A stretch of DNA of 54,626 bases, from positions 1 through 54,626 of the forward strand of contig JAPLGN010000009.1 in the NCBI GenBank assembly GCA_026390135.1. The letters run 5' to 3'. Below the pieces are notes generated by a model, which had not been told where the DNA came from, did not search any database, and worked only from the letters and a program-made list of their open reading frames with translations. Made by a program: the position numbers and the translations under genes. This document shows, piece by piece, positions 33,652 to 54,626 of this stretch (within the stretch, counting starts at the first letter, position 1; the number at the start of each line of letters is the position of its first letter). The stretch comes from Campylobacterales bacterium. Lineage in GTDB: Bacteria > Campylobacterota > Campylobacteria > Campylobacterales > Sulfurimonadaceae.

Positions 33652-35797
<2,146 letters not shown>

Positions 35798-35798
<1 letters not shown>

Positions 35799-36505
35799 TG
35801 CGTGTCGCGATTATCCCTGCACGCGGCGGCAGCAAACGAATCCCTCGTAAAAACATAAAACTTTTTCATGGAAAACCCATTATCGCCTACAGCATTGAAG
35901 CAGCAGTAAAATCCGGTTTGTTTGATAAGATTATCGTCAGTACCGATGATGATGAAATCGCGCAAGTGGCACGAAACTATGGAGCAGAAACTCCATTTAT
36001 CCGTCCTCGTGAACTCTCAGATGATTTTACCGGTAGCGGTGCCGTTGTTGCCCATGCCATACAATGGCTCAAAGATTCCGGAATGACTCCTGAGTATGTA
36101 TGTACTCTCTATTCGACAGCCCCGTTGATTCAAATTGATACACTTATCGACGCCTTTGATAAACTCTCCAAGAGTGATGCCGTTCATGCTTTTCCCGTCA
36201 CTTCTATGCCCGCCCCGATTCAAAGAAGTTTTAAAATTACCGCCGATAACCGCTTGGAAATGTTTTGGCCCGAGAATTTTTATACACGTTCCCAAGATTT
36301 GGAAGAAGCGTATCATGATGCGGGACAATTTTATTGGACGCATCTCGCTCGTGAAGAAGCATCTAAAGAAAAGATTTCATTTTCTAATATTAGTATTCCG
36401 ATTATTTTGCCACGCCATCTTGTTCAAGATATTGATACTCCTGAGGATTGGGAGTTTGCCGAATTACTCTACGAAGTGATTCAACGCACCAAAGTGAGGA
36501 AATAA
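35798..36505 (+). CDS. pseF: Pseudaminic acid cytidylyltransferase
   Basis: Activates pseudaminic acid to the CMP sugar used by flagellin glycosyltransferases. The CTP-binding signature ARGGSKRIPRKN lies at about residues 8-19, and STDDDEIAQVARNYGAE follows. I chose ATG 35798 (MRVAIIPARGG), whose first base is the last of the pseC stop; an in-frame ATG at 35786 is possible but would overlap pseC. 235 residues. Final step of the CMP-Pse route. Confidence 0.94.
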
Positions 36506-36506
36506 A

Positions 36507-37550
36507 ATGTTCAATCAAACGTTTGAGATAGATGGTAGAAAAATCGGTGAAGGGTGTGAACCTTATATCATTGCAGAGATGTCCGCCAATCATGGAAATA
36601 ATCTGGATACCGCCATCGAAATTATCAAAGAGGCCAAGAAAGCAGGAGCCGATGCTGTTAAGATTCAAACCTATACCGCCGACACCCTAACCCTTAATTG
36701 TCCCACCCCAGCATTTGAAGCCAAAGGGGCTTGGGAGGGTCAATATCTTTACGACCTCTATTTAGATGCCTCTATGCCTTGGGAATGGACACCCATACTT
36801 CAAAAAGTTGCCGAAGAGATTGGGATTACCCTTTTTTCATCACCTTTTGATGTTTCTTCGATTGAATTTTTAGAAGCGCTAAATATGCCAGCCTATAAAA
36901 TCGCATCCCCTGAAATCATTGATTTACCCTTTGTAAGAAGAGTTGCACAAACAGGTAAGCCGATCATCATGTCAACAGGCGGTGCGACCTTATCTCAAAT
37001 CGGTGATGCTGTAACGATTATGGTTGAAGAGAACGTAAAAGACTTAGCGATCTTAAAATGCACAAGTGAATATCCTGCACCTCCTGAAAATATCCATCTC
37101 AAAACGATTCCCAATCTCAAAGAAATCTTTAAATGTCCGATAGGTTTATCGGATCACACACTGGGAAGCGCCATCCCTATAGCTTCAGTTGCCCTTGGCT
37201 GCAGTATTATCGAAAAACACTTTATCGTCAACCGATATGATACGACAGCCGATAGCTTTTTTTCAGCGACCCCAGATGAGCTTAAATCAATTGTTGATGG
37301 AAGTAAACTGGTTTATAAAGCCTTGGGAAATATTAATTACCCGCTGATTCCACCAAAACCACAAAGAAGCTTAATTGCTATAACGGACATCTCAGAAGGG
37401 GAACCCCTCATAAACAGCAAAAATATCAAAAGCTTGCGCCCAGGCGGTGGAATAGAGCCAAAATATATCGATCAAGTTGTAAATCGAAAAGCCACAGGGT
37501 TCATTAAACGCGGAACACCTTTGGACTGGACAATAATTGGTGGATTTTAA
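36507..37550 (+). CDS. pseI: Pseudaminic acid synthase
   Basis: NeuB-family enzyme that condenses phosphoenolpyruvate with the 6-deoxy-AltdiNAc sugar. The TIM-barrel part includes IIAEMSANHG (Glu24, His29) and GADAVKIQTY (Lys52). The C-terminal antifreeze-like (SAF) domain spans about 280-345 (GEPLINSKNIKSLRPGGGI). At 347 residues the length is that of the family. Gap of 1 base from pseF. The next gene starts 73 bases downstream, where the AT-rich cassette begins. Confidence 0.94.
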   Translation: MFNQTFEIDGRKIGEGCEPYIIAEMSANHGNNLDTAIEIIKEAKKAGADAVKIQTYTADTLTLNCPTPAFEAKGAWEGQYLYDLYLDASMPWEWTPILQKVAEEIGITLFSSPFDVSSIEFLEALNMPAYKIASPEIIDLPFVRRVAQTGKPIIMSTGGATLSQIGDAVTIMVEENVKDLAILKCTSEYPAPPENIHLKTIPNLKEIFKCPIGLSDHTLGSAIPIASVALGCSIIEKHFIVNRYDTTADSFFSATPDELKSIVDGSKLVYKALGNINYPLIPPKPQRSLIAITDISEGEPLINSKNIKSLRPGGGIEPKYIDQVVNRKATGFIKRGTPLDWTIIGGF

Positions 37551-37623: not shown

Positions 37624-38205
37624 ATGTCATTACAATCCAATCAGCTCTATATTAACAATCTCATTCAATTACTTCAAAAAATCGATTATGAAATAGTGGA
37701 TCAAATTATTAAGATTCTTGAAGAAGCGGCACATAAACAATCCTCTATTTATATCATAGGAAATGGTGGCAGTTCGGCTACTGCATCTCATATGGTTAAT
37801 GATTTAGGGGCAGGATTACGTCGAAGAGGTCTCATAAACTTAGATATCACCAGTTTAGCGGATAATGTACCGGTCATAACCGCAATCGCCAACGATATAG
37901 GATATGAAAATATTTTTTATATGCAGTTAGAAGGTCTCTTAAAACCTGAAGATCTTATTATAGCGATCTCTTGCAGCGGTAACTCTCCCAACATTGTTAA
38001 AGCGGTTGAATACGCTAAAAATATCGGTTCAACGATTATCGGTATTACTGGTTTTGACGGTGGAGATTTAAAAAAATTATGTGACGTCAATTTCCATATA
38101 GATGCCCCAAAAGGGGAATACGGTTTAGTGGAGGACATGCATATGATACTAGACCACATGATCTACTCTTATTACATCAACAAAGGCAAAACAAATGTCG
38201 GATAA
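37624..38205 (+). CDS. SIS-domain sugar isomerase, GmhA-like
   Basis: A 193-residue sugar isomerase domain protein: GNGGSSATASH at 46-56 and SCSGNSPN at about 115-122 form the phosphosugar-binding loops, and the late EDMHMILDHMIYSYY resembles the segment that carries the active-site His in sedoheptulose 7-phosphate isomerase. GmhA converts sedoheptulose 7-phosphate to D-glycero-D-manno-heptose 7-phosphate. Together with the downstream kinase-nucleotidyltransferase and HddC-like gene this suggests an NDP-heptose-like product, but other phosphosugars are possible. The end overlaps the radical SAM gene by 11 bases. Confidence 0.8.
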   Translation: MSLQSNQLYINNLIQLLQKIDYEIVDQIIKILEEAAHKQSSIYIIGNGGSSATASHMVNDLGAGLRRRGLINLDITSLADNVPVITAIANDIGYENIFYMQLEGLLKPEDLIIAISCSGNSPNIVKAVEYAKNIGSTIIGITGFDGGDLKKLCDVNFHIDAPKGEYGLVEDMHMILDHMIYSYYINKGKTNVG

Positions 38206-39286
38206 ATATAAAATTGACAGTCATAAACTCATCTTCCATCCAGAGAGAGTTTCTCAATGGCTTGAGGCAAAAGACGATTGGGAGAAAGAAAAAAAAGTTT
38301 ATCCAATCTACGTTGAAGTCTCTCCTTATGGCGGATGTAATCATAGATGCACCTTCTGCGGTGTTGATTATATGGGGTACCAAAATATTAAATTAGATAC
38401 TGCTATTTTTAAAGAACGACTTACCGAAATGGGTCAGTTAGGGATAAAAAGTATTATGTATGCAGGTGAAGGTGAGCCATTGCTGCATAAAGATCTCCCC
38501 GAAATCGTTGAACATACAAAAAAATCAGGTATTGATGTTTCCATTACAACCAATTTCATACCTGTCAATCCAAAAGGGATAGAAACCTATTTGACCTATT
38601 CGAGTTGGATCAAAGTAAGTGTGAATGCAGGAACTGCATCCACCTATGGTGCCATTCACCAAACAAAAGAATCAGATTTTGATTTGCTTTTAAAAAACTT
38701 ATCCATGGCCGTTGAAATCAGAAAATCAAAACGATTAAACTGTACTCTCGGTGCGCAATCTCTATTACTTCCTGAAAATCATCATGAAATGTTTTTATTG
38801 GCAAAAACAATGAAAGAGATTGGCTTGGACTATATTGTTATTAAACCTTATTCTCAACATCTTTTCAGCGTAACCAAACAATACGAAGGGCTCACCTATT
38901 CTGGGATGCTAGAACTTGAGAAAGAACTTCAAACCCTGAATGACGAAAATTTCAATGTCGTATTTCGCTCTGAAACCATGAAAAAAGTAGAAGAAAAAGC
39001 TCCGTACAGTAAATGCTATTCAACACCATTCTTCTGGGGCTATATTTCAACGGATGGTAATTTTTACGGATGCAGCTGCTATTTGGCTCAAGATAAATTT
39101 TGCTATGGCAATATCAATGACACACCCTTTAAAAATATATGGGAAAGCGATAAAAGAAAAGCCAATTTAAACTTTATTAAAAATGAATTGGATATTTCAC
39201 AATGTCGCACCAATTGCCGTATGGATTCGATAAATCGTTACTTATGGGATTTAAAACACCCTAATGCACATGTTAATTTCATTTAA
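38195..39286 (+). CDS. Radical SAM/SPASM-like enzyme 1 of the sugar cassette
   Basis: A 363-residue enzyme. The radical SAM cluster motif is at Cys48-x3-Cys52-x2-Cys55 (GCNHRCTFCG). A C-terminal Cys-rich region (CYSTPFFWG, YGCSCYL, QCRTNCR) looks like a SPASM/twitch site for one or two extra Fe-S clusters. The N-terminus carries HPERVSQWLEA, shared in modified form with the second radical SAM gene of the operon, and the protein ends HVNFI, similar to HINFI in the second. They are therefore paralogues. In sugar loci such enzymes can do dehydration, epimerisation or C-C chemistry; the reaction here is unknown. Confidence 0.85.
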   Translation: MSDKYKIDSHKLIFHPERVSQWLEAKDDWEKEKKVYPIYVEVSPYGGCNHRCTFCGVDYMGYQNIKLDTAIFKERLTEMGQLGIKSIMYAGEGEPLLHKDLPEIVEHTKKSGIDVSITTNFIPVNPKGIETYLTYSSWIKVSVNAGTASTYGAIHQTKESDFDLLLKNLSMAVEIRKSKRLNCTLGAQSLLLPENHHEMFLLAKTMKEIGLDYIVIKPYSQHLFSVTKQYEGLTYSGMLELEKELQTLNDENFNVVFRSETMKKVEEKAPYSKCYSTPFFWGYISTDGNFYGCSCYLAQDKFCYGNINDTPFKNIWESDKRKANLNFIKNELDISQCRTNCRMDSINRYLWDLKHPNAHVNFI

Positions 39287-39295
39287 AGGATCTTT

Positions 39296-40282
39296 TTGAA
39301 AGCTATTGTAACCGGAGGAGCTGGGTTTATAGGCTCACACATGGTAGATCTCTTAGTCAAAAACGGTTATGAAGTAACGGTTTTAGATAATTTAGTCAAT
39401 GGCAGATTGGATAACATTGCTCACCATAAAAATAATATTACCTTTGCTAAAGTTGATATTGGAGACTACAATCAAGATCTTGAGGAATATTTTACCGATG
39501 TTGAGTATGTATTTCATTATGCTGCATTAGCAGATATTGTCCCCTCCATCAATGATCCGCTTAAATACCATAAAGCAAATGTCGATGGAACGATTAACGT
39601 GCTAGAAGCAGCAAAAAAATCTAAAAGATTAAAAAAATTTGTCTATGCTGCATCATCATCTTGTTATGGTATCCCCGATATTTACCCTACCCCTGAATCC
39701 TCTCCCATACGACCTGAATATCCTTATGCGCACACAAAAACAGTCGGTGAGCAATATGTACTTCATTGGGGTCATGTTTATAATATGCCTATCGTATCCA
39801 TGCGCTTCTTTAATGTGTATGGAGTAAGACACAGAACCAGTGGAACCTATGGTGCTGTTTTTGGAGTTTTTTTGGCTCAATTGCTTAATAACAAGCCATT
39901 GACGGTCGTGGGTGACGGGGAGCAAACGAGAGACTTTACGTATGTTACCGATATTGTTGATGCGTGTTACAGTGCGGCTGTCTCGGATGTCGTTCAAGAA
40001 ATTTTAAATGTTGGAAGCGGAAACACCTACAGTATTAATTATCTTGTGAGCTTATTGGGTGGTGAAAAAGTGCATATTCCCAAACGTCCAGGCGAACCGG
40101 ACAGTACTTTTGCCGATATTACAAAAATTAAAACCATGCTGGGATGGACACCAAAAGTCACCATTGAAGAAGGAGTCCAGATTATGCTTGATAACATTGA
40201 GCAATGGCGAGATGCTCCGGTTTGGGATGAAAGTTCCATCGAAGAAGCAACAAAAGACTGGTTCGAGTGTTTAGGAAAATGA
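39296..40282 (+). CDS. NAD-dependent sugar nucleotide epimerase/dehydratase
   Basis: A 328-residue extended SDR: GGAGFIGS at 7-14, catalytic serines around 120-122 (AASSSCYG), and Tyr144/Lys148 (YAHTK). The PEYPYAHTK context and VYGVRHRTSGTYGAVFGVF are like UDP-glucose/UDP-glucuronate 4-epimerases and related enzymes. Substrate not predictable from sequence. It starts at TTG 39296, with AAAGGA (39285-39290) 5 bases upstream. The next gene starts 1 base after its stop. Confidence 0.88.
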   Translation: MKAIVTGGAGFIGSHMVDLLVKNGYEVTVLDNLVNGRLDNIAHHKNNITFAKVDIGDYNQDLEEYFTDVEYVFHYAALADIVPSINDPLKYHKANVDGTINVLEAAKKSKRLKKFVYAASSSCYGIPDIYPTPESSPIRPEYPYAHTKTVGEQYVLHWGHVYNMPIVSMRFFNVYGVRHRTSGTYGAVFGVFLAQLLNNKPLTVVGDGEQTRDFTYVTDIVDACYSAAVSDVVQEILNVGSGNTYSINYLVSLLGGEKVHIPKRPGEPDSTFADITKIKTMLGWTPKVTIEEGVQIMLDNIEQWRDAPVWDESSIEEATKDWFECLGK

Positions 40283-40283
40283 G

Positions 40284-41078
40284 ATGTTAGATTCAGCTAA
40301 TATAAGAAAAAAAACCATTAAATTGTCTTGTGACAGCGGGGCAGGACATTTGGCTCCTGCATTATCAACCGTTGAAATATTAACGGTTTTATTTAGAGAT
40401 TATTTAAAATATGATGTAAAAGATCCCCAAAGTGAGACTCGCGATCGCTTGGTATTCAGCAAAGGTCACGGCGCCTATGCTTATTACGTCATATTGAATG
40501 AATTAGGCTTTATTCCTGATTTTGAACTTGAAAATTTTTATACGGAGAAATCAACTCTTAAAGGGTGTTTGACCGAAAACAAAGCATATATGATTGAAGC
40601 ATCTACCGGTTCGCTAGGGCATGGATTACCTCTATCTGTCGGAATGGCTCAAGCATTTAAAATGCAAAAAAAGGACACTAAAGTTGTATGCATTGTCGGT
40701 GACGGTGAGATGCAAGAAGGAAGTAACTTCGAAGCATTAGCTTTAGCGTATCGTTTTAAATTGGACAATTTATTGTTAATCGTTGATGCAAATGAACTTC
40801 AGGCTATGGATAAGGTGAGCGACGTAGGATTAGATAATAACCGATTATCAAAAGTCTTGTCTGCCTATACCGATAACTTTTCTAACATTAACGGACATGA
40901 TGAAAACGCACTCAAAGAAACTTTTGATACTTTTTTTCAAAAAACAAACAGTTCTTTTTCTATTATGGTTTGTAAGACTATCAAAGGAAAAGGGATTGAA
41001 CTGCTTGAAAATTCTGTAGCCCATCATTTTAGATGTCCTACCCAAGACGGTTATGTAATGGAGGTGAATGATGTCTGA
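40284..41078 (+). CDS. Transketolase-like protein, N-terminal (thiamine-PP-binding) subunit
   Basis: A 264-residue protein matching the first third of transketolase. The thiamine diphosphate motif is GDGEMQEGSNFEA (from 139) ending in Asn170. Other motifs: SKGHGAYAYYVILNELG and ASTGSLGHGLPLSVGMAQA. The C-terminal half is a separate gene that overlaps by 8-11 bases, so the two subunits are made together. Split transketolases occur in many bacteria and archaea; in sugar loci they may make heptulose phosphate or add a two-carbon unit to a sugar. Confidence 0.88.
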   Translation: MLDSANIRKKTIKLSCDSGAGHLAPALSTVEILTVLFRDYLKYDVKDPQSETRDRLVFSKGHGAYAYYVILNELGFIPDFELENFYTEKSTLKGCLTENKAYMIEASTGSLGHGLPLSVGMAQAFKMQKKDTKVVCIVGDGEMQEGSNFEALALAYRFKLDNLLLIVDANELQAMDKVSDVGLDNNRLSKVLSAYTDNFSNINGHDENALKETFDTFFQKTNSSFSIMVCKTIKGKGIELLENSVAHHFRCPTQDGYVMEVNDV

Positions 41079-41559
41079 TATTGTCTCAAAACAAGAAGTA
41101 ATGAAAGAGATTTATACCTACTTTAAAGAAGATGAAAGGATGTGTCTACTCGTAGGAGACATGGGATTTGCGGTATTGGATGATTTTTTCAACAATCACT
41201 CAGACAGAGTATTTAACACGGGAATCAATGAACAAGCGACCATGAGCATGGCTGCCGGTATGTATTTAGCCGGAATGAAACCTCTGTACTACTCTCAAGT
41301 ACCCTTTTTGGTGATGAGAGCCTACGAACAAATTCGATATGATATTAATGAGCATAAAATGAATGTAAAGCTAATCGGTGTCGGGGCTGATAATTATTTT
41401 TCAATGCTTGGCAGAAGTCATTGTATTGATAATGACGATATAGCAATGATGACGATTTTTAAAAACTTTTTAATTCTTTCTCCTACGACAAAGACATTAA
41501 AAGAGGACATTCATTTGATGTTCAAAACAAATGGACCGGTCTATTTGAGATGCAGATAA
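41071..41559 (+). CDS. Transketolase-like protein, pyrimidine-binding subunit, shortened
   Basis: Only 162 residues. It contains the PYR domain: VGDMGFAV, NTGINEQATMSMAAGMYLAG with the thiamine-activating Glu54, and GRSHCIDNDDIAMM. Ordinary split C-terminal subunits are about 300 residues and include the C-terminal transketolase domain; here the protein stops right after the PYR domain (GPVYLRCR). The next gene follows within a few bases, so this is not an obvious frameshift. I chose ATG 41071 (GGAGG 6 bases upstream); ATG 41068 is adjacent. Confidence 0.8.
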   Translation: MSDIVSKQEVMKEIYTYFKEDERMCLLVGDMGFAVLDDFFNNHSDRVFNTGINEQATMSMAAGMYLAGMKPLYYSQVPFLVMRAYEQIRYDINEHKMNVKLIGVGADNYFSMLGRSHCIDNDDIAMMTIFKNFLILSPTTKTLKEDIHLMFKTNGPVYLRCR

Positions 41560-41574
41560 AATAAGGTGGATACT

Positions 41575-42291
41575 TTGAAAAATATTGAAATATACGAAAA
41601 AAATATTTTGTCTTATAAAGATATAATCACCCCTGCCGCCTATACTAAAAGTGCTAATGGTTTAGAATATAAAGCGACTTATAACGGATGTGAATTAAAA
41701 CTAAGCATAAATCCAAATACCCATATCATTAATAACGCTATGGTCAATGAATGCGAATATGAGCCGTATAAACTAGGTATGATGAGGGCATTTTGCACTC
41801 TTATCGTCGGATTACCGATTTTGGAAGCACAGGATCATGGTGTCCTGAGATTAGAAAATTTATTAAGAGACAATGTGGTTCATCCCGTTAAAGGTATTAT
41901 AATGCCGGGAAATAGCTGTGAACTTTTCGAAATTCCATTACATTTGATTCGTGATCTCTACAACCAATACTCTCAAGAACAAAATTATTACCCTCTCGTT
42001 AACACCTACTCTCCAAAAGAGATACAAGAATGGAAAAGTTTACCGATCAACGATCGTGAAAAAATTGTTTTCGAAAAAATCAAGAACTTTTGTATGCAAC
42101 ATAACATAGAAGAATATGAAGCAAAATTAATCGGAGAAATGAGAGTTGAATTTGCCGCCGACAAAGAAGTCTACAGTTCATTGGCTAAATTACTTTTCGA
42201 TATGGAAATAAGTATCGATAAAGAATTAGGATTTTCATTAGAAGTTATGTTCACAGAAAAAAAAGACACCAATAAAAAAAGACAAAACTAG
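41575..42291 (+). CDS. Unknown protein in the sugar cassette
   Basis: A 238-residue soluble protein of unknown family. The start is probably TTG 41575 (MKNIEIYEKN), with AAGGTGG at 41564-41570; GTG 41566 is an alternative. The N-terminal half is beta-rich (ATYNGCELKLSINPNTHIIN) and includes Cys residues in GCELKL, VNECEYEP and RAFCTL and the sequence LEAQDHGVLRLENLLRD; the second half is helical with an acidic/basic tail. The pattern of the first half is faintly like the NifU/IscU scaffold fold, which I rate as weak. It is placed between the mini-transketolase and the second radical SAM gene, so a partner role for one of them is likely. Codon use is very AT-rich. Confidence 0.6.
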   Translation: MKNIEIYEKNILSYKDIITPAAYTKSANGLEYKATYNGCELKLSINPNTHIINNAMVNECEYEPYKLGMMRAFCTLIVGLPILEAQDHGVLRLENLLRDNVVHPVKGIIMPGNSCELFEIPLHLIRDLYNQYSQEQNYYPLVNTYSPKEIQEWKSLPINDREKIVFEKIKNFCMQHNIEEYEAKLIGEMRVEFAADKEVYSSLAKLLFDMEISIDKELGFSLEVMFTEKKDTNKKRQN

Positions 42292-42307
42292 GAAGTGAGT
42301 GTCAATA

Positions 42308-43417
42308 ATGAAAAATAGAGAATTAATTTTGGACGGGACAAAGCTGGCTTGGCATTTAGAAAGGGTACAACAATGGTTAAACGGGGAAAGAATCGCCCCC
42401 ATTACCATTGATATGTCTTTAACTAGAGCCTGTAACTATGGATGCGGATTTTGCTATGCACGATTACAAGAAAATGACAGATTTGAAATCACCAAAGAAA
42501 CAATTGATAATTTTCTGGAAGATTGTGCGCAAATGGGAGTAAAAGCCATCAGCTTAGTCTCAGATGGAGAAAGTTCTATTCATCCTGATTATGTACATAC
42601 CATCGTTAAAGGTTCTCAACTGGGGATCTCTATGGCTGTGGCAACTCATGGCTACAACACAAGAAAAGAAGATCTTGAAAAGATATTGCCACATTTAACG
42701 TATCTGCGCGTTAACTTTTCTGCCGGTGAACCTAAGCGTTATTCAGAGATCATGGGCGTTAAAGAAGAGTGGTTTTATCAGGTGTGTGACAATATAGAAA
42801 CCATGATGGAAATTAAAAAACGCCTCAATCTGAACGTTACAATCGGTATGCAAATGGTCTTAATGCCGCAAGATGGAGATCAAGTTATCCCATTGGCAAA
42901 ACTTGGAAAAAAGTTGAGACCGGACTATCTTGTTATTAAACATACAAGTGATAGTGAAGAGGGTGATTTGGGTGTCGATTATTCTAAGTATGCCGCATTA
43001 GAGGGTGTACTAAAAGAAGCAGAAACCTATTCGGATGATGACTATCAAGTAGTGGTAAAATGGTCTAAAATCAATGCACAAGGTAAACGAAGTTATCAAC
43101 GCTGCTATGGACCTCCTTTTCAAATTCAAATGTCAGGTTCTGGCTTGGTTGCACCCTGCGGAATGCTGTTTAATGAAAAATATAAAAAATTTCATATCGG
43201 CAATATTACACAAACACGATTTAAAGAGATTGTGAACAGCGACAGATATTGGGAAGTTATGAATTATTTAGCTTCTCCCAGTTTTGATGCTCAAAAAATG
43301 TGTGGTTCATTATGCTTGCAGCATAAGCCTAATGAATATTTAGATGCTTTGCAAAAAGGGCTAATCAGCCTACAAAAACCTAGTGGTACAATGCCACAAC
43401 ATATCAATTTCATATAA
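42308..43417 (+). CDS. Radical SAM/SPASM-like enzyme 2 of the sugar cassette
   Basis: A 369-residue paralogue of the gene at 38195. Radical SAM cysteines at 42, 46 and 49 (CNYGCGFC); AWHLERVQQWLNG at the N-terminus matches FHPERVSQWLEA of enzyme 1. The C-terminal Cys region (RCYGPPF, VAPCGML, KMCGSLC) again suggests extra Fe-S clusters. The last five residues are HINFI, compared with HVNFI in enzyme 1. Start uncertain: ATG 42308 is preferred, GTG 42299 is possible. Reaction unknown; having two paralogues in one operon suggests two consecutive or alternative radical steps. Confidence 0.85.
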   Translation: MKNRELILDGTKLAWHLERVQQWLNGERIAPITIDMSLTRACNYGCGFCYARLQENDRFEITKETIDNFLEDCAQMGVKAISLVSDGESSIHPDYVHTIVKGSQLGISMAVATHGYNTRKEDLEKILPHLTYLRVNFSAGEPKRYSEIMGVKEEWFYQVCDNIETMMEIKKRLNLNVTIGMQMVLMPQDGDQVIPLAKLGKKLRPDYLVIKHTSDSEEGDLGVDYSKYAALEGVLKEAETYSDDDYQVVVKWSKINAQGKRSYQRCYGPPFQIQMSGSGLVAPCGMLFNEKYKKFHIGNITQTRFKEIVNSDRYWEVMNYLASPSFDAQKMCGSLCLQHKPNEYLDALQKGLISLQKPSGTMPQHINFI

Positions 43418-43430
43418 GGTAACAAAAAAA

Positions 43431-44867
43431 GTGACGAATAAAAAGAAAAAAACGATATTTGTTCACGGAAAATTTGAAGTTCTGCACCCGGGGCATTTAC
43501 GGCTTCTTAAATTTGCAAAAGAGAGTGGGACTTCTTTAGAAGTTGGGGTTTATGCAGACAGCATGGGGAAATATTTTGTACCGGAAGATCTCAGACTTGA
43601 AGCATTAATGGCATCTATTTTCGTAGATAAAGCATTCATTCTTGATGTTTTGCCTGAAGAATACATTCGAAAAAACAAACCGGATATTGTTGTCAAAGGG
43701 AATGAACACGAAAACATGTTTAATCCTGAATCTGAAATTTTAAAAGAATACGGCGGGAAACTTATTTTTAGTTCCGGAGACAGCAGATTTTCATCCATTG
43801 AGCTACTCAGAGCAGAACTCAATGCGATAGACCTCTCTTCCATCAAGAAACCCCAAGCATTTTGTGATCGACATACGTTTGACTATCAAGAACTCAAACG
43901 AATCCTAAATCGATTTGAAGGGATCAAAACAATTGTTATAGGAGATACCATCATCGATGAGTATATAGCATGTGAAGCACTTGGCATGAGTCAAGAAGAT
44001 CCTACAATTGTCGTAACTCCCTTACTGAGTGAAAAATTTTTAGGGGGAGCCGGTATTGTTGCCGCGCACACAAAAGGGCTTGGGGCAACCGTTAGTTTTT
44101 TCACCGTATTGGGCTGTGATGATGCGGCAGGATATGCAAAAGAGAAACTAAAAGAGTACGGAATAAACTCTTTTTGCTACCCTGACGATACAAGACCTAC
44201 CAATCTAAAACAACGCTTTCGTGTCGGCAACAAAACAATGCTTAGAGTGAATCATCTCAAGCAACATCACATTTCCATAGAAATCCAAACAGAAATTTTG
44301 AAAGACATAGAAAAAGAGATAAAAGACGCGCACGTTCTTATTTTTTCCGACTTTAGTTATGGATGTTTACCTCAAAGAATGATAAATGAAATAATATCTC
44401 TTGGTGAAAAATATGGTCTTATTATGAGTGCAGACAGTCAATCTTCTTCACAAAACGGAGATATATCAAGATTTAATAATATGACCCTTGTAACGCCGAC
44501 TGAACGAGAAATCAGACTTGCAGTTGATGATTTCGAGTCAGGGCTCATTGTTATTTCAGATAAACTAAAAGCGAAGGCAAATCCTCAAAATATCTTTATT
44601 ACCTTAGCTTCAGAAGGAGTTATAATCAACAGATATACGTCAAAAGACGAATTTTTTACGGATAGATTACCTGCAATGAATCAGAATCCCAAAGACGTTG
44701 CCGGAGCTGGAGATTCGATGCTTGCCACAGCTTCTTTAGCCTTGGCAGCAGGTGCAAATATCTGGCAAGCCTCCTATCTCAGCTCCATAGCTGCCGCGTG
44801 TCAAGTAAGCAGAGTGGGTAATTTACCTCTCACAAAAGAAGATATTCACAAAGAGTTAACTCTATGA
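43431..44867 (+). CDS. Bifunctional nucleotidyltransferase-PfkB kinase (HldE-like, domain order reversed)
   Basis: A 478-residue fusion. The N-terminal part (about 1-125) is a cytidylyltransferase-fold nucleotidyltransferase with HPGH at 19-22 (FVHGKFEVLHPGHL). The C-terminal part (about 165-478) is a PfkB/RfaE-type kinase with GGAG at 205-208 and DVAGAGDS at 422-429. In E. coli HldE the kinase comes first and the adenylyltransferase second, so the order here is swapped. HldE acts on D-glycero-D-manno-heptose 7-phosphate; the substrate here is inferred. Start: GTG 43431 after AAGGT is preferred; ATG 43383 lies inside the upstream gene. The end overlaps the next gene by 4 bases. Confidence 0.85.
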   Translation: MTNKKKKTIFVHGKFEVLHPGHLRLLKFAKESGTSLEVGVYADSMGKYFVPEDLRLEALMASIFVDKAFILDVLPEEYIRKNKPDIVVKGNEHENMFNPESEILKEYGGKLIFSSGDSRFSSIELLRAELNAIDLSSIKKPQAFCDRHTFDYQELKRILNRFEGIKTIVIGDTIIDEYIACEALGMSQEDPTIVVTPLLSEKFLGGAGIVAAHTKGLGATVSFFTVLGCDDAAGYAKEKLKEYGINSFCYPDDTRPTNLKQRFRVGNKTMLRVNHLKQHHISIEIQTEILKDIEKEIKDAHVLIFSDFSYGCLPQRMINEIISLGEKYGLIMSADSQSSSQNGDISRFNNMTLVTPTEREIRLAVDDFESGLIVISDKLKAKANPQNIFITLASEGVIINRYTSKDEFFTDRLPAMNQNPKDVAGAGDSMLATASLALAAGANIWQASYLSSIAAACQVSRVGNLPLTKEDIHKELTL

Positions 44868-45574
44868 AAAGAGCTCTTTTATTAGCCGCAGGTTTAGGGA
44901 CAAGACTTAGACCCATAACGGATACAATCCAAAAATGTCTTGTCCCCATAAACGGGAAACCGTTGATAGAGTATTGGCTGGATACCCTCTCTAAAGCCGG
45001 TATCGAAGAGTTTTTAATCAACACACACTATTTTGCCGAACAGATGAAAGAATACGTTGAAAATTCTAAATATAAAAACAATATAGTTCTGGTGCATGAA
45101 GATGAACTTCTCTTGACAGGCGGTACAATCCTTGCCAATAAAAGTTTTTTTCAAAATGAACCTTTTTTGGTAGTCCATGCCGACAATCTTTGCTTGTGCG
45201 ATTTTACGCTGTTTATTGAAAAGCATAAAAACAGACCGCAACACTGTGATATTACAATGATGACATTTGAAACGGATATGCCAAAGAACTGTGGAATCGT
45301 TGATTTGGACAAGAACGGTGTCGTTGTCGGTTTCTATGAAAAAGTGGCTAATCCGCCTTCCAATTTAGCCAATGGCGCAGTTTATATCTTTGAACCTTCT
45401 GTTATTGAGTATATAGAAAGTTATCATAAAAAAATGGTGGATTTAAGTACTGAAGTATTACCCCATTACCTAAATAAAATGTATACATTTCAAAATAGTG
45501 TGTATCACAGAGATATTGGAACAATCCAAAGCTATGCTTTGGCTCAAATAGAAATTCTCAACCTCCATTTTTGA
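44864..45574 (+). CDS. Sugar-1-phosphate nucleotidyltransferase (HddC/RmlA-like)
   Basis: A 236-residue GT-A-fold nucleotidyltransferase: LLLAAGLGTRLRP at 5-17, Lys24 in QKCLVPINGKP and VVHADNLCLCD for the metal site. Length and NGAVYIFEPSVIEYIES are like D-glycero-D-manno-heptose 1-phosphate guanylyltransferase (HddC) and mannose-1-phosphate guanylyltransferases. It could supply the nucleotide-activated end product of the cassette. The gene ends the plus-strand cassette; its last 17 bases overlap the convergent glycosyltransferase gene. Confidence 0.85.
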   Translation: MKRALLLAAGLGTRLRPITDTIQKCLVPINGKPLIEYWLDTLSKAGIEEFLINTHYFAEQMKEYVENSKYKNNIVLVHEDELLLTGGTILANKSFFQNEPFLVVHADNLCLCDFTLFIEKHKNRPQHCDITMMTFETDMPKNCGIVDLDKNGVVVGFYEKVANPPSNLANGAVYIFEPSVIEYIESYHKKMVDLSTEVLPHYLNKMYTFQNSVYHRDIGTIQSYALAQIEILNLHF

Positions 45575-46955
45575 CAATAGATACCATCTTTTCTATAAAG
45601 CCTTGATAGGACATATCTTGACTGATTTTGAAAGGATCTTCGCTAGGAACACTCTGCAAAGAGGCTTTCAGCTCTTTTGGATTTTTAAAAACAAGACTAT
45701 TGTTGTGATGATGGAATGCTTCTGAATTTAAAATATCTTCATAAATAACAGGGATACATCCGCAGTAACTTGCTTCAAAAACTCGTTGTTGATAATAAAA
45801 TTGTGAATGGCATGCGAGTGAATATTTAGAACCATAAAGAACTTTTGCAATCTCCTCTCCATACGTCAAAACCCCTTTATAATAGGGGGCGATTTCGGGA
45901 ATATTTTCCCATCCATACCCATAAACTTCAACGGGAATATCAGAATGCAAACACATCCACTTCACAACCTCACAACGGACAACGGCTGGATAAATATGCA
46001 TATCTATATGTTCTTGGCGTCTTATTGATGATGCATGTTTTTGATAGAAATCCGATAATAAAGCAGGTGTTATTGGCATGGTATTAAACATTTCAGCAAG
46101 TTCTTGAATAAAATCACACTCTTTATACTCAATAGTCGGGCTGACTACTTCAAAGTAATTTTGACCGATAAAAACAATTTTTTCCTGCCGTTCAATGACC
46201 TCATCGAGCGTATATTGTTGATAATCAATAGAAAAAGGCTGATAAAAGGTTTTGGAATCAGGAATATTTTTTTTAATCAAAGCATCTTTTAAAGGCTCTA
46301 TCAAATAAAAGAAATAATCTCTTTCTCTAGCATTCAAAGTAGTTGAATCATATAAAATAAGTGTCGGATCTTGAAACCAAATAAAATTATAGGTCTCATC
46401 CGAAATTTGAAGATTGTGCAGTCTGTTGATCGTAAGACACAGATGCGGTAAAAAAGAAGCCATATTTTTTGCCCGCCTGTAATCGGTCAAATCTTCCGTG
46501 TTATCATTCATATCAAAAAACACTTGATACCCTAATGCACGAAACGTATTTGCAACATTTTCAGATGCATGTCTTACGACTTTTGCATAATGTTCAACAG
46601 CAATGTAAACACGCAAGGGCTCTGAAAAATCCAAAGGTGTCGTTTTTAGTGTAGTTAAAAACTCTTGATGCTGCTGTATTTTACGTGTGTTTAAAGCTTC
46701 TAGTGTTTCTATAAAATTTTTCTCATAGCTATCATTTTCACAATCAATAGATGTTGGCCATCTTGTATCCATCGTAAGCAATAGCTCCATTTGTTCCCAA
46801 GGGAGATGGATTAAATTTTTTGGACCATTCGCAATCGCCGAACCATCATAATAACAAAGTTGAAGATTTCCATAGGGTCCAAATTTATTTTCCTTGAGAG
46901 CCACGCTTAAAGCTTTATTTTTATCCATAAAATAAGTATCTTCAATAGTCTTCAT
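45558..46955 (-). CDS. Glycosyltransferase, GT-B fold, CgeB-like
   Basis: A 465-residue protein, the only minus-strand gene between fliD and the Maf gene. Its C-terminal half contains QQRVFEASYCGCIPVIYED (about 400-420), the donor-binding pattern of CgeB/SpsG-like GT-B transferases, and VEVYGYGWENIPEIAPYYKG before it. The N-terminal half is helical, with no membrane helix. Most probably it transfers a sugar to flagellin or to another glycan of the locus. Donor unknown. Its start diverges from pseG across 125 bases that hold TATAAT sequences readable in both directions (46991-46996). Confidence 0.75.
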   Translation of the reverse strand: MKTIEDTYFMDKNKALSVALKENKFGPYGNLQLCYYDGSAIANGPKNLIHLPWEQMELLLTMDTRWPTSIDCENDSYEKNFIETLEALNTRKIQQHQEFLTTLKTTPLDFSEPLRVYIAVEHYAKVVRHASENVANTFRALGYQVFFDMNDNTEDLTDYRRAKNMASFLPHLCLTINRLHNLQISDETYNFIWFQDPTLILYDSTTLNARERDYFFYLIEPLKDALIKKNIPDSKTFYQPFSIDYQQYTLDEVIERQEKIVFIGQNYFEVVSPTIEYKECDFIQELAEMFNTMPITPALLSDFYQKHASSIRRQEHIDMHIYPAVVRCEVVKWMCLHSDIPVEVYGYGWENIPEIAPYYKGVLTYGEEIAKVLYGSKYSLACHSQFYYQQRVFEASYCGCIPVIYEDILNSEAFHHHNNSLVFKNPKELKASLQSVPSEDPFKISQDMSYQGFIEKMVSIVKNGG

Positions 46956-47080
46956 CTGCCCTCATATCTTTAAAGATTAATATTTGCCATTATAATAGCC
47001 TAATTTGCACATGGGGGAAACAAAATACGATATGATTAAGAAAAAATAACCATTTGTATATGACGAGAGAGAGTCCCCAA

Positions 47081-48016
47081 TTGAAACCTCCAAAAATAGC
47101 ATTTTATACTGAAGCAGGTACGCAAAGGGGAATGGGGCATCTGATACGATGTTATTCACTGTATGAGGAATTTAAGCGCAGCGGGATAAACGGATCTTTT
47201 TTTTTGGATAGCGATATCGATTTTAGTTACAAATTTAGTGATTTACACCCTTTTATCTGGGATGAATTTCATATAGACGATAGCTATGACATCGTTTTTA
47301 TCGACAGCTATGAAGCCTCTATCGACATTTATAATACTATTGCAAAAAATGCTCGTGTACCTGTATTTATCGATGATTATGGTCGATTAGAGTATCCAAA
47401 GGGGGTTATTATCAACTTTGCTCCGGATGCAGAGAAGCTGTTCTTTCGCGATAAAAATCCAGAAAATAGGTATCTATTGGGAGTGGATTATATTCCCCTC
47501 AGAAGAGAAATTTTAACTGTCCATCCAACAAAACAGCCTCAAATTTTTATCATGCTGGGTGGAAACGACATCTTTAACGTATCACAAATGATACTTAAGG
47601 CATTGCAAGATATAGATCTCAAAAAAGTAGTGGTTGTCAATAATGCAAGCACAGCCAAAACGTTACGCACATATCCGAATGTAAACGTTTTGCACAAACC
47701 CTCCGATGAGGAGCTTATTTTTGAGATGGCTCGAAGCTCTTTAGCCATTTCAACGGCAAGTATGACGGTATATGAGCTTGCTTATTTCACAATACCGACG
47801 ATCATTGTTGCTTTGAGTGAGAATCAAAAAATAGGCTCTATGCAACTTTTAAACCATCATTTAGCCGCTTATCTTATCGATGTTACGGATGGGCATTGGA
47901 TCACGGATCTTCATAAATACGTGACATCCTTAAACTCAGAAAATATCTATCCGATCATCGATGGCAAGGGGAGAGAAAGAATCGTGAAATTCATTATAGG
48001 AATGGTAAAAAAATGA
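47081..48016 (+). CDS. pseG: UDP-2,4-diacetamido-2,4,6-trideoxy-beta-L-altropyranose hydrolase
   Basis: GT-B-fold hydrolase that removes UDP before the PseI step. The signature RGMGHLIRC carries the catalytic His (His20 in this numbering). Later FIMLGGNDIFNVS and ISTASMTVYELAYFTIP (donor-site-like) fit PseG. 311 residues. Start: TTG 47081 (GAGAG 7-12 bases upstream) gives the usual short N-terminus; ATG 47060 and TTG 47054 are possible. It overlaps the next gene by 4 bases. Separated from pseBCFI by a 9 kb insert. Confidence 0.88.
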   Translation: MKPPKIAFYTEAGTQRGMGHLIRCYSLYEEFKRSGINGSFFLDSDIDFSYKFSDLHPFIWDEFHIDDSYDIVFIDSYEASIDIYNTIAKNARVPVFIDDYGRLEYPKGVIINFAPDAEKLFFRDKNPENRYLLGVDYIPLRREILTVHPTKQPQIFIMLGGNDIFNVSQMILKALQDIDLKKVVVVNNASTAKTLRTYPNVNVLHKPSDEELIFEMARSSLAISTASMTVYELAYFTIPTIIVALSENQKIGSMQLLNHHLAAYLIDVTDGHWITDLHKYVTSLNSENIYPIIDGKGRERIVKFIIGMVKK

Positions 48017-49173
48017 AAAAAATTCTTTTGCTTGGCGGCAGCCATAGAGATATACCGCTGATAAAAGCTTCTCAAGAGTTAGGGTATTTTGTTATAACAC
48101 TAGGAGATAGAGACTATTACTTAGGGCACCAATACTCGGACAAATCGTATAAAATAAACTTTAATGATTTAGAAAAAGTCAAAAAAATCGCCCTCGATGA
48201 ACAAATAGATTATCTATTGCCCGGCTGCGGTGAAGAATCGTATCTTAAGACGGTTCAACTCTCGCATGAGTTAAATATAGGAAATTTTGACACACTTGAA
48301 ACGGCAAAACTAATCCACAATAAATGGAAATTTAAAGATTTTTGCCTAAAAAACACTATTTCTACCCCCAACGGTATTTTTTATAAAGATCAAAACGACT
48401 TAAAAAATCTACAATTCCCTATCGTTGTCAAACCAACCAATCTCTCAGGCGGGAGAGGGGTTGAAATCGTCCATGATACTGATGAACTGCAAAAATCTCT
48501 CACCAACGCACAAAAATTTAGCGATGAGATTTTTCTTGAAGAGTTTATTGACGGAAAACTGATCGCCTATTCTATATTTCTAAAAAATCAGAAAATCATT
48601 TATGGATTTGTCGGCGATGATAAAACCTATCTCAATCCATATCTTATAGCATCGGCGTATCCAACCGAAATAGAGGATGTTGTTCTAAATAAACTCAAAG
48701 AAGATATAGAAAAATTAGCTCGCCTGCTGCATCTCGTCGATGGTATGTTTCATTTGCAAGTTTTAATCAAAGATCAAAAACCCTATATTATTGATGTTAC
48801 ACGAAGAATTCCGGGAGATTTATATCCTTATTTGATAGAGTATTGCGATGATGTTGAGTATTCAAAAGCAGTTGTAAATGCGTATACAACCGGAATAATC
48901 ACAGATGAATTTGAGCCTAAATCCCAAAAACAATCGTTTGTCATACGCCACTGCGTCATGCCCTCAACCAATGGCATTTACAAAGAGATACACATAGATG
49001 AGAGCTTACGAAGCAGTATAATCTATACCTTTGATTTGATGGAAAAAGGGTCTATTGTAACCGATTTCTTGCATACGCAGTTAGCAATCATTTTTATAAA
49101 ATTAGATTATGCCGATACTAGTGTTTTAGAAAACATTAATAGTATCATCAAACCTGTTATAGATGAATTATGA
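48013..49173 (+). CDS. ATP-grasp enzyme
   Basis: A 386-residue carboxylate-amine/thiol ligase-like protein: N-terminal PurK/CarB-like preATP-grasp domain (LLLGGSHRDIPLIKASQELG), the ATP-grasp loop VVKPTNLSGGRGVEIV (about 139-154) and the metal site VDGMFHLQVLIKD...PYIIDVTRRIPGDLYP. ATP-grasp enzymes form amide bonds; beside pseG it might attach an amino acid or acyl group to a Pse derivative. That role is inference. Overlaps pseG by 4 bases; its stop is 20 bases before the next gene. Confidence 0.85.
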   Translation: MKKILLLGGSHRDIPLIKASQELGYFVITLGDRDYYLGHQYSDKSYKINFNDLEKVKKIALDEQIDYLLPGCGEESYLKTVQLSHELNIGNFDTLETAKLIHNKWKFKDFCLKNTISTPNGIFYKDQNDLKNLQFPIVVKPTNLSGGRGVEIVHDTDELQKSLTNAQKFSDEIFLEEFIDGKLIAYSIFLKNQKIIYGFVGDDKTYLNPYLIASAYPTEIEDVVLNKLKEDIEKLARLLHLVDGMFHLQVLIKDQKPYIIDVTRRIPGDLYPYLIEYCDDVEYSKAVVNAYTTGIITDEFEPKSQKQSFVIRHCVMPSTNGIYKEIHIDESLRSSIIYTFDLMEKGSIVTDFLHTQLAIIFIKLDYADTSVLENINSIIKPVIDEL

Positions 49174-49192
49174 AAAAAGTAGGAGATAAACT

Positions 49193-50245
49193 TTGGAAAA
49201 AATAGCCATTTACGGTGCAGGGCAATATGGACAAATTTTTTATGCCGCATTAAGTAATACGGGAGTTGAAATCGACTTTTTTATCGATACTGACCCCTCT
49301 AAAACTGAACTTTATTCAAAACCCGTTTACCGTATTGAAGAAATTTCTCTTGAAACGACCATCTATATCTCGGTTCTAAGTGTTTCGGATCGAATCAAAG
49401 AAGAGCTCACTTTACTTGGGTATCAAAACATCTGTACCTTTATCGAAACACTCAAGCAGTTTCCAACCATCATGAATGAAGTATCAAAACGTAATTTTCT
49501 GTGGATGCGCTCTAATCCCCTCGATATGATTGATACCGATAAAATCCATCAATTTCGCACCTTACTCTCTGATAACAAAAGTCTCCACACCCTCGATCAA
49601 ATCACTGCTTTTCGAAATACCTATGATATGAACTACTATCCCTATCCTGATGGTGAGAAAGAATATTTTCCTTCCGATGTTCCCGTATTGGACAATCTTG
49701 CCACGGTACGGTTTATCGACTGCGGTGCCTATATCGGTGATACGGTTGCCGATCTTATGAAGACCAACAAATCCATCGAATCTGTTGTCTCTTTTGAACC
49801 CGATAAACAAAACTTTCAAAAACTTCTCTCTGAAACAAAAAAACATCAAGGGCAATTCATTACCCTAAATGCAGGAGTATGGTCAACAAACACTCTTGTA
49901 AATTTTAGTAATGACAACTCAAGTTTCAGTAAAATTGGGGAAGACGGGAGCTTTATTCCCGTCATGGCATTGGATCAAACCGTTTTTTCTGCTCGACCAA
50001 ACTACATCAAAATGGATATAGAAGGGGCTGAGCAAGAAGCATTAAAAGGATCTCGTGAAATCATACAAACGTATTCACCCCATTTAGCTATTTGTCTTTA
50101 TCATCGCCCCCAAGATTTTTGGGAGATACCCCTGATGATTCACGAAATGAATCCCCATTATTCTATGTATCTGCGAGTACATGAACACATGGGGCTAAGT
50201 ACTGTCTTGTACTGTATTCCAAAATCAGGAGCCTTGAATGACTAA
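49193..50245 (+). CDS. FkbM-family methyltransferase with N-terminal Rossmann-like domain
   Basis: A 350-residue two-domain protein. Residues 1-85 form a PglD-like nucleotide-binding unit (IAIYGAGQYGQIFYAAL, DFFIDTDPSK). Residues 170-330 form the FkbM methyltransferase with DCGAYIGDT (SAM loop) and KMDIEGAEQEALKG. Probably O-methylates a flagellar glycan. Starts at TTG 49193, with AGGAG 7 bases upstream. The end overlaps the oxidoreductase gene by 8 bases. Confidence 0.85.
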   Translation: MEKIAIYGAGQYGQIFYAALSNTGVEIDFFIDTDPSKTELYSKPVYRIEEISLETTIYISVLSVSDRIKEELTLLGYQNICTFIETLKQFPTIMNEVSKRNFLWMRSNPLDMIDTDKIHQFRTLLSDNKSLHTLDQITAFRNTYDMNYYPYPDGEKEYFPSDVPVLDNLATVRFIDCGAYIGDTVADLMKTNKSIESVVSFEPDKQNFQKLLSETKKHQGQFITLNAGVWSTNTLVNFSNDNSSFSKIGEDGSFIPVMALDQTVFSARPNYIKMDIEGAEQEALKGSREIIQTYSPHLAICLYHRPQDFWEIPLMIHEMNPHYSMYLRVHEHMGLSTVLYCIPKSGALND

Positions 50246-51350
50246 ACGCCCGCTAAGACTCGGATTCATCGGTGGCGGATTAGGTTCGATTGCAGGAAAT
50301 ACACACTATGCCGCAGCAACAATGGATGGACTCTATCGATTGCGAACAGGCGCATTTAGCACACATCCCATAACCAACCAAGAAACCGCCGACCAATGGC
50401 ATATTGATTCTCCCTACAACTCATGGATGACCATGATTGACGAAGAGACTCAAAATATTGATGCATGTGTTATCCTAACACCGACACCTACCCATGCACC
50501 CATTGTAAAAGAACTTCTGAAACGAAAAATTCCTATTATCTGTGAAAAAGCTTTTGTTGCTTCGCTCGCAGAAGCCGAGGAGCTTAAAGCGCTCTATAAC
50601 CCCTCTGAGCACTTTATGTCGGTTACCTATAACTATACCGGCTATCCTCTTATTCGAGAGCTTAGAGAGCGTATATTGAACAATGAACTAGGGGAAATAA
50701 TCAACATTCGCCTCGAAATGCCACAAGAGAGCTTTTTACGTCCGCCGGTGAGTCAAAAATACCCTCAAGCTTGGCGGCTAAAAGATGATTACATCCCCAC
50801 AATTTGTCTGGATTTAGGGGTTCATATTCAACACATGGCATCGTTTTTAACGGGTATGGATCCCAACAGGGTGATGGGGAAGATGGATACGTTCTCTCAT
50901 TATGGTGTTGTCGATAATGTCGATGTATTTATGGGATACCCATCGGGAGCAACGGGGCATCTATGGATGAGCAAGACCGCTCTTGGGCATCGAAACGGAC
51001 TTGCAGTTCATATCTATGGAACAAAAGCTTCGGCTCATTGGATACAAACGCAACCTGAACAACTCCAGCTTCATTACTCCAATGGTGAAAAAAAGATCGT
51101 CGAGCGGGGAGGAGATACATTACTATGTGGGCAAAAAAGATACAATCGGATGACGCCAGGACATCCTGCGGGCTTTATTGAGGCATTTGCAAATCTCTAT
51201 GTGGACATTGCTGAAGATTTCCAAAATTTCCAAAACAATATCAAAACAAAAAGTCCCTATACGTTCGGTATAGAAGAGGCGCATAAAGGGCTACATCTCT
51301 TTCATAAAGTCAAGGAATCTCACGAGACAAGACAATGGGTAGACCTCTAA
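50238..51350 (+). CDS. Gfo/Idh/MocA-family oxidoreductase
   Basis: A 370-residue NAD(P)-dependent dehydrogenase. The N-terminal Rossmann motif is GFIGGGLGSIAGNTHYAA; ILTPTPTHAPIVKELL and CEKAFVASLAEAEELK (with the conserved EK) are diagnostic. The C-terminal domain includes WRLKDDYIPTICLDLGVHIQHM. In sialic-acid-like loci such enzymes oxidise or reduce a nonulosonate or its precursor. Substrate unknown. Ends 5 bases before the convergent Maf gene. Confidence 0.85.
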   Translation: MTKRPLRLGFIGGGLGSIAGNTHYAAATMDGLYRLRTGAFSTHPITNQETADQWHIDSPYNSWMTMIDEETQNIDACVILTPTPTHAPIVKELLKRKIPIICEKAFVASLAEAEELKALYNPSEHFMSVTYNYTGYPLIRELRERILNNELGEIINIRLEMPQESFLRPPVSQKYPQAWRLKDDYIPTICLDLGVHIQHMASFLTGMDPNRVMGKMDTFSHYGVVDNVDVFMGYPSGATGHLWMSKTALGHRNGLAVHIYGTKASAHWIQTQPEQLQLHYSNGEKKIVERGGDTLLCGQKRYNRMTPGHPAGFIEAFANLYVDIAEDFQNFQNNIKTKSPYTFGIEEAHKGLHLFHKVKESHETRQWVDL

Positions 51351-53370: not shown

Positions 53371-53390
53371 GTTGTTACTATTGTAACAAC
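53371..53390 (-). terminator. Hairpin spanning the flagellin stop codon
   Basis: GTTGTTAC-TATT-GTAACAAC, a perfect 8-bp stem with a 4-base loop that includes most of the TAG stop (53378-53380). In the mRNA it lies across the last sense codons, the stop and the first 7 untranslated bases. Confidence 0.5.
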
Positions 53391-54625: not shown

Positions 54626-54626
54626 C

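Follow-up and report, generated by a model that had tools for sequence, protein, structure and literature searches.

The window analysed here is a 54,626-base stretch that makes up the entire contig JAPLGN010000009.1 (C19) of a Campylobacterales genome, assigned to the genus Sulfuricurvum, that is 82 % complete and whose nearest named relatives are metagenome-assembled genomes of Sulfuricurvum. At positions 37624-45574 it holds a cassette of nine plus-strand genes, drawn from sugar-activation, radical S-adenosylmethionine (radical SAM) and transketolase families, that is real and conserved in the phylum Campylobacterota. A previous sequence-only reading had counted eight genes, although the genes in its own list sum to nine, as does the listing of open reading frames (ORFs). 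The tight packing it described is correct, with neighbours overlapping or lying at most 13 bases apart, and domain searches agree with the families it named, i.e. a SIS isomerase, two radical SAM proteins, an epimerase, a two-gene transketolase, an unknown protein and a nucleotidyltransferase-kinase fusion. The nine genes are as follows.

SIS, 37624-38205, plus strand: predicted SIS-domain sugar-phosphate isomerase, GmhA paralogue
rSAM1, 38195-39286, plus strand: radical SAM/SPASM protein that tracks the transketolase
EPI, 39296-40282, plus strand: NAD-dependent epimerase/dehydratase family (short-chain dehydrogenase/reductase)
TKN, 40284-41078, plus strand: split transketolase, N-terminal subunit, predicted to bind thiamine diphosphate (ThDP)
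TKP, 41068-41559, plus strand: pyrimidine-domain subunit, 163 amino acids (aa)
UNK, 41566-42291, plus strand: unknown two-part protein
rSAM2, 42299-43417, plus strand: second radical SAM/SPASM protein
HLDE, 43431-44867 (ORF readable from 43383), plus strand: predicted nucleotidyltransferase domain followed by a PfkB heptose-type kinase domain
NTP, 44864-45574, plus strand: predicted sugar-1-phosphate nucleotidyltransferase

Gene products of the cassette

TKN matches Transketolase_N (6.4e-29), and among solved structures it comes closest to the N component of a split-chain transketolase (6yak, 1.6e-37). TKP matches Transket_pyr alone (2.3e-12) and is closest to the 341-aa C component (6yaj, 1.7e-11). 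When aligned with the housekeeping transketolase of a Sulfuricurvum relative, TKP ends where the third domain would begin, the Transketolase_C domain being missing, and the pair keeps the GDG...N motif, which we take to be the ThDP motif, as well as the glutamate of GINEQ, presumably the activating residue. By its ThDP-binding and pyrimidine domains, then, TKN/TKP is assigned to the transketolase family, and two-carbon (C2) transfer is predicted for it.

SIS, HLDE and NTP are related to enzymes of heptose synthesis, with HldE and GmhA being the closest families to the cassette kinase and isomerase. The sequence-only reading, which had seen a sugar-activation cassette of heptose-related families, was right about the families, but all of the members are paralogues that fall below equivalog cut-offs. 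SIS matches Pfam SIS_2 (1.4e-20) and is not a GmhA equivalog, scoring 101 bits against a cut-off of 209 with the gmhA model TIGR00441; in alignment with the genome's own GmhA, two histidines are kept, while glutamate has become aspartate and glutamine has become glutamate at two other positions, all four being sites that we assume to be metal-binding or catalytic. The domains of HLDE run CTP_transf_like then PfkB, the reverse of HldE, with 54 bits to TIGR02199 (cut-off 181.5; residues 14-138) and 187.5 bits to TIGR02198 (cut-off 345; residues 176-491); when tested as an HldE, i.e. as a kinase followed by a nucleotidyltransferase with both over cut-off, it fails. Its start is more likely the GTG at 43431 than position 43383, because a 98 % identical relative (locus L074) begins 12 bases after rSAM2. 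NTP matches NTP_transferase (7.6e-38), and the HddC-like label once given to it is unspecific, as it scores 78 bits with the HddC model (cut-off 300) and 128 bits with a mannose-1-phosphate guanylyltransferase model.

The normal heptose enzymes are found elsewhere. As the sequence-only reading noted, there is no gmhB in the window's cassette, based on domain and NCBIfam searches; one is present elsewhere in the same genome, where gmhA, gmhB and hldE lie together on contig C13. Among 14 genomes searched, a normal transketolase scores over its cut-off in all 14, GmhB in 13 (the exception being G004), HldE in 13 (the exception being G248) and GmhA in 10, a further three genomes giving 201-209 bits for GmhA; each of the 14 also has another, low-scoring relative of GmhA. 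Because the housekeeping transketolase, gmhA, gmhB and hldE lie elsewhere in the genomes, the cassette enzymes form a parallel set, and SIS, the kinase and nucleotidyltransferase domains of HLDE, and NTP are, judged from their sequences, paralogues of heptose enzymes and not housekeeping copies. In G248, the cassette itself includes a GmhB (203 bits against a cut-off of 150), adjoining SIS, which favours a heptose-level bisphosphate intermediate.

Both radical SAM proteins carry the Pfam Radical_SAM and SPASM domains and a CxxxCxxC motif (CNHRCTFC and CNYGCGFC), and they share only 28 % identity. Copies of rSAM1 in other genera are 58-63 % identical. The best NCBIfam match of both is a tungsten cofactor radical SAM maturase, at 72.5 and 67 bits against a cut-off of 380, and among the best 25 of its 37 NCBIfam matches rSAM1 reaches no model's cut-off. 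In terms of solved structures, rSAM1 is closest to the sugar-nucleotide decarboxylase BlsE and rSAM2 to SkfB. Two loci have, beside an intact rSAM1, a second rSAM1-like sequence broken over two ORFs (L067:12061-13148 and L068:6062-7236). Additionally, a table of phase-variable genes gives, for Campylobacter CFT03427, two radical SAM genes that share one locus-tag range with methyltransferase and dehydrogenase genes (PMC6321876); that locus is possibly a related surface-sugar locus. EPI matches Pfam Epimerase (1.5e-57), with 169 bits to GalE (cut-off 262) and 130 bits to the HldD model (cut-off 275).

UNK has no Pfam match, even at an E-value of 10. When compared by hhalign with 19 NifU N-domains (the usable sequences from 31 NifU_N loci), its N-terminal part gave a weak match of 66 % probability and E 5.6e-5, with 18 control families at 0.5 % or less, and it may have an IscU/NifU-like fold. 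A true iron-sulphur scaffold was considered and rejected, since the ligand cysteines are not conserved; C77, the only invariant cysteine in nine UNK sequences, is by our reading not at a ligand position. A profile of the nine sequences gave chance matches only when run against solved structures (E 0.27 and 0.45), and AlphaFold models were unusable, with a mean pLDDT (predicted local distance difference test) of 39.2 from a single sequence and 40.4 from three. UNK was found in five of 397 phylum genomes at E 0.01, one being a weak partial match, and a wider search of genome contigs found two loci, both from Sulfuricurvum. In L061-L063, an ORF of about 100 aa before rSAM2 appears to be a stand-alone C-terminal part of UNK, which fits UNK as a partner of rSAM2.

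Conservation across the Campylobacterota

The counts of places among the 397 phylum genomes are lower bounds, as no more than three to six preliminary candidates per genome were scored. The reversed fusion HLDE occurs full-length (at least 52 % identity) at no fewer than 18 places in 17 of the 397 genomes, spanning eight genera and four families by tool labels; the next-best match, at 34 % identity, extends over just the kinase. With four genus relatives (G004, G006, G027 and G035), there are 22 HLDE loci, and within 20 kb, as far as the stretches and contigs extend, these hold NTP in 22, rSAM1 in 20, the split transketolase in 19, SIS in 16, EPI in 15, rSAM2 in 14 and a glycosyltransferase-like gene (GT, described below) in 14. 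They further hold Maf-like genes in nine, UNK in eight, flagellin in five and a third radical SAM gene (rSAM3) in three. Relatives of rSAM2 that are at least 61 % identical are present in at least 12 of the 397 genomes, with rSAM1 nearby in all 12 and HLDE plus NTP in 10; relatives at least 79 % identical are present in six of 41 genus genomes. In G384, the HLDE stretch has no transketolase, and SIS, GT, TKN and TKP are on a second contig. Since this block of genes is found again in other genera and families, the cassette is beyond chance, and the linkage that the sequence-only reading proposed to look for across Campylobacterota genomes proved to be conserved, if patchy. That patchiness indicates that transfer or loss has been common.

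Some cassettes are broken by AAA ATPase genes and a DUF1016/YhcG nuclease-like gene (L064:5551-6672, L064:8848-9987 and L066:7365-8021), which suggests repeated insertions. Outside the phylum, a Solidesulfovibrio plasmid carries relatives of rSAM2 (37 %), TKN (37 %), TKP (31 %) and pseB (57 %) and has no HLDE or SIS match, and a Streptomyces plasmid (rSAM2 match of 23 %) has radical SAM genes and no transketolase or HLDE match. Literature searches, the coverage of which excludes most subscription journals, found no description of this gene set.

Two genomic contexts for the split transketolase

A TKN search of the same 397 genomes located at least 49 split-transketolase places in 41 genomes; neighbours were scored within 10 kb, and the four genus relatives named above were left out of both this count and the transketolase tree. 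Thirty-three of the places found, including the window, have a radical SAM relative nearby; no RfbH-like dehydratase occurs at any of these 33, and HLDE is present at 14. Among the 16 places that lack a radical SAM relative, 12 have an RfbH-like gene and none has HLDE; of those 12, five carry a gene resembling CDP-glucose 4,6-dehydratase and five one resembling HddA. The mutual exclusion of radical SAM and RfbH-like genes beside the split transketolase has a Fisher's exact p of 2e-8, relatedness not being corrected for. In the tree, the radical SAM-linked transketolases fall into two sets, one being a group of 17 and the other sitting within the RfbH-linked transketolases. The context label needs four changes, at least three of them forced by well-supported branches; the number of switches is not firm because long branches were flagged (L175_1, L181_0, L188_0 and L189_0). 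That the split transketolase sits beside either RfbG/RfbH or radical SAM genes suggests one role, in which a C2 unit is added to a keto sugar whose ketone can be made in two ways.

In L176, L177, L178 and L189, the split transketolase lies beside CDP-glucose 4,6-dehydratase and RfbH-like genes, and in L178 RfbF (419 bits), RfbG (489 bits) and RfbH (721 bits) are all over NCBIfam cut-offs. In L179, L180, L183, L186 and L191, it lies beside HddA-like kinase and RfbH-like genes; the neighbours in L180 resemble HddC, HddA, RfbH and GDP-fucose synthase, all below cut-off. These HddA-like/RfbH-like loci are possibly a second, radical-SAM-free type of branched heptose cluster in the phylum. A sister module in L076, L077 and L193-L198 consists of radical SAM, split transketolase, methyltransferase and third radical SAM genes, without HLDE, and in L076, L193 and L194 flagellin and Maf matches occur within 10 kb of the transketolase.

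Surroundings of the cassette

The cassette had been described as inserted between pseI and pseG. It does follow pseI, which ends at 37550; on the right, a minus-strand glycosyltransferase-like gene intervenes before the next gene at 47054, which is only PseG-like. The surrounding features are as follows.

pseB, pseC, pseF and pseI, 33667-37550, plus strand: pseudaminic acid genes, all over NCBIfam cut-offs
GT, 45558-46955, minus strand: glycosyltransferase-like gene (Glyco_trans_1_2, 4.7e-8)
PseG-like gene, 47054-48016, plus strand: 93 bits to TIGR03590, cut-off 154
PseD/Maf-like flagellin modification protein, 51356-53242, minus strand: 420 bits to NF050051, cut-off 670; MptE-like domain
flagellin, 53378-54626, minus strand: 5' end lost at the contig end; matches residues 120-514 of the flagellin B model

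Between the PseG-like and Maf-like genes (48013-51350) are ATP-grasp, FkbM methyltransferase and GFO/IDH/MocA genes. GT probably belongs to the module; its relatives (29-97 % identical) in the HLDE loci often adjoin SIS or rSAM1. Scans of the sequence found promoter-like sites (38 versus 37.1 expected) and terminator-like sites (4 versus 7.5 expected) at chance level. The G+C content is 0.36-0.38 over the cassette, 0.38-0.42 in the preceding 8 kb and 0.35-0.40 afterwards, and because the drop is only mild, base composition does not demonstrate a recent transfer.

A proposed pathway and its alternatives

From the gene families, the conservation of their linkage and the transketolase's two contexts, a route can be drawn up whose reactions, order of steps, substrates and target are all read from gene context. 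It would lead to a nucleotide-activated, heptose-level, C2-branched sugar, a reading to which we assign a probability of roughly 0.42. The first step would be isomerization by SIS of a ketose phosphate, which is probably sedoheptulose 7-phosphate drawn from housekeeping metabolism; HLDE would then phosphorylate C1, and a phosphatase, either the genome's own GmhB or, in G248, the one within the cassette, would strip the other phosphate. The nucleoside diphosphate (NDP)-sugar would be formed by the nucleotidyltransferase domain of HLDE or by NTP. In the fourth step, rSAM1 would act by oxidation (or dehydration) on a carbon that bears a hydroxyl group and so produce a keto or deoxy-keto sugar, thereby filling the place of the RfbG/RfbH-type dehydratases of the sister clusters, and TKN/TKP would add a two-carbon hydroxyacetyl unit to the ketone, yielding a branched-chain sugar. 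Tailoring by EPI and rSAM2, with UNK as a partner of rSAM2, might follow, with final transfer by GT and possibly the Maf protein, plausibly onto flagellin. The branched sugar made by two-carbon transfer, which was one of two options in the sequence-only reading, thus gains support from gene context, its reactions remaining predictions; decoration of flagellin, which that reading had expected of either product, is plausible, given the surroundings of the cassette in the window and Maf-like genes in nine and flagellin in five of the 22 loci. More tentatively, and with considerable doubt, an exchangeable module of radical SAM and mini-transketolase genes may have replaced NDP-4-keto-sugar dehydratases and, placed on heptose-type activation, may give a branched nine-carbon sugar of flagellin or another surface glycan.

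Several observations count against the branched-sugar route. Ketone formation by rSAM1 would have no homologue with a known sugar reaction behind it, because no NCBIfam radical SAM model fits either radical SAM protein. The exclusion of radical SAM and RfbH-like genes rests on similarity searches at fixed scores, with some stretches stopping at contig edges, and four of the 49 transketolase places have neither kind of gene, one of them (L184) ending near a contig edge. GmhB was seen inside the cassette in one genome only, and the cassette has two nucleotidyltransferases, NTP and HLDE, where a single one ought to suffice for one pathway. The L161 locus, which lies on a long contig, contains SIS, HLDE and NTP but no transketolase or rSAM1 in its stretch, and flagellin lies within the fetched stretch in only five of the 22 loci.

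A rival reading is that two pathways share one operon, with SIS, HLDE and NTP making one activated sugar and rSAM1, the transketolase and EPI making or altering another, such as the neighbouring pseudaminic acid. The gene groups are indeed separable, as 19 of the 33 radical SAM-linked transketolase places lack HLDE and L161 has the converse set, and the second nucleotidyltransferase would find a use. Nevertheless, such a division is unlikely, since the genes overlap on the same strand, with rSAM1, the transketolase and rSAM2 lying between SIS and HLDE; EPI is 72-83 % identical across loci of either transketolase type, and many cassette loci have no full pse set adjacent.

The other option of the sequence-only reading was a plain NDP-heptose route, in which a dedicated TKN/TKP supplies sedoheptulose 7-phosphate, SIS, HLDE and NTP convert it to an NDP-heptose, and the product is remodelled later by the radical SAM enzymes. 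The family membership of SIS, HLDE and NTP and the GmhB within the G248 cassette both fit. Yet a dedicated transketolase is now disfavoured, and the whole route decidedly improbable, because a housekeeping transketolase was present in every one of the 14 genomes and because the split transketolase tracks radical SAM genes and not heptose genes, HLDE being within 10 kb at no more than 14 of the 33 places.

A salvage route would account both for the linkage of transketolase to radical SAM genes and for the missing GmhB, as no 7-phosphatase would be required: 5-deoxyribose from the 5'-deoxyadenosine released by the radical SAM enzymes would be turned by the transketolase into 7-deoxysedoheptulose and by SIS, HLDE and NTP into an NDP-7-deoxyheptose. 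In Synechococcus elongatus, 5-deoxyribose is reported to be turned into 7-deoxysedoheptulose by way of a transketolase (PMC8102628). This is nonetheless a very improbable account of the cassette, considering that transketolase-radical SAM pairs often lack SIS, HLDE and NTP nearby, that related transketolases sit with RfbG/RfbH and no radical SAM gene, that G248 has a GmhB in its cassette and that domain and NCBIfam searches of the window's cassette found no nucleosidase or phosphorylase. Least probable of all, and scarcely to be entertained, is that the radical SAM enzymes have a peptide or protein as their substrate and lie beside unrelated sugar genes, for while peptide-modifying enzymes often have SPASM domains and rSAM2 is closest in structure to SkfB, rSAM1 is closest to the sugar-nucleotide enzyme BlsE, sugar genes are the constant company, and the cassette has no gene-sized gap, though a precursor peptide ORF was not specifically sought.

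If the branched-sugar route is correct, both radical SAM chemistry and ketone-accepting transketolases would enter the synthesis of bacterial surface glycans.

Comparison with known systems

The ADP-/GDP-heptose pathway (GmhA, HldE or HddA, GmhB and HddC) shares its isomerase, kinase and nucleotidyltransferase families with the cassette. The two differ in that the cassette enzymes are all below equivalog cut-offs, the fusion is reversed and the normal pathway is encoded elsewhere in the genome. For TKN and TKP, the closest solved structures are those of the split-chain transketolase of Carboxydothermus hydrogenoformans; its C component has 341 aa, whereas TKP, at 163 aa, stops after the pyrimidine domain.

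RfbG and RfbH make CDP-3,6-dideoxy-4-keto-glucose, the acceptor for YerE in yersiniose synthesis. The RfbF, RfbG and RfbH of the sister locus L178 correspond to the genes by which that acceptor is prepared (PMC12247030). Like the model given here, the yersiniose A pathway takes an NDP-sugar to a ketone, to which a ThDP enzyme then adds a C2 branch, YerE being described as adding two carbons to the keto sugar acceptor (PMC12247030). It does so with YerE, RfbG/RfbH and glucose-type activation, whereas the cassette has a split transketolase, rSAM1 and heptose-type activation; a YerE-like decarboxylase domain was not found among the cassette proteins in domain and NCBIfam searches, and RfbG/RfbH dehydratases occur within 10 kb at none of the 33 radical SAM-linked transketolase places, the window among them. 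Two-subunit ThDP enzymes that add C2 to a deoxy-keto sugar are also on record, i.e. those of the alphaKADH2/AviB1-AviB2 type, in which pyruvate is the donor (PMC12247030, PMC4753412). The branch that they form from pyruvate is an acetyl group; that expected of a transketolase is a hydroxyacetyl group.

An Azospirillum oryzae plasmid carries a relative with a different enzyme in the transketolase position. This locus has EPI (59 %), rSAM2 (69 %), SIS, the reversed fusion and UNK, together with two DegT aminotransferases; it has no transketolase match, and in the transketolase's place are genes resembling the alpha and beta subunits of pyruvate dehydrogenase E1 (289 and 271 bits, both below cut-off), a type of enzyme to which the formation of branched sugars is ascribed (PMC12247030). 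The swap of a transketolase for an enzyme of the pyruvate dehydrogenase E1 type is most easily understood if the slot is one of C2 branching.

A precedent for the reaction assigned to TKN/TKP is itself a proposal, made for the split transketolases of miharamycin and amipurimycin synthesis, which would transfer a hydroxyacetyl unit to a keto sugar (PMC12247030, section 9). According to that section of the 2025 review, no ketone-accepting transketolase has been characterized in vitro, and the 13 candidate sequences, themselves uncharacterized, are all from Streptomycetes; those described here come from surface-sugar loci of the Campylobacterota and have a TKP without the third domain. In the Campylobacterota, the two gene neighbourhoods of the split transketolase, which was located at 49 or more places across 397 genomes, make the question of the acceptor directly testable.

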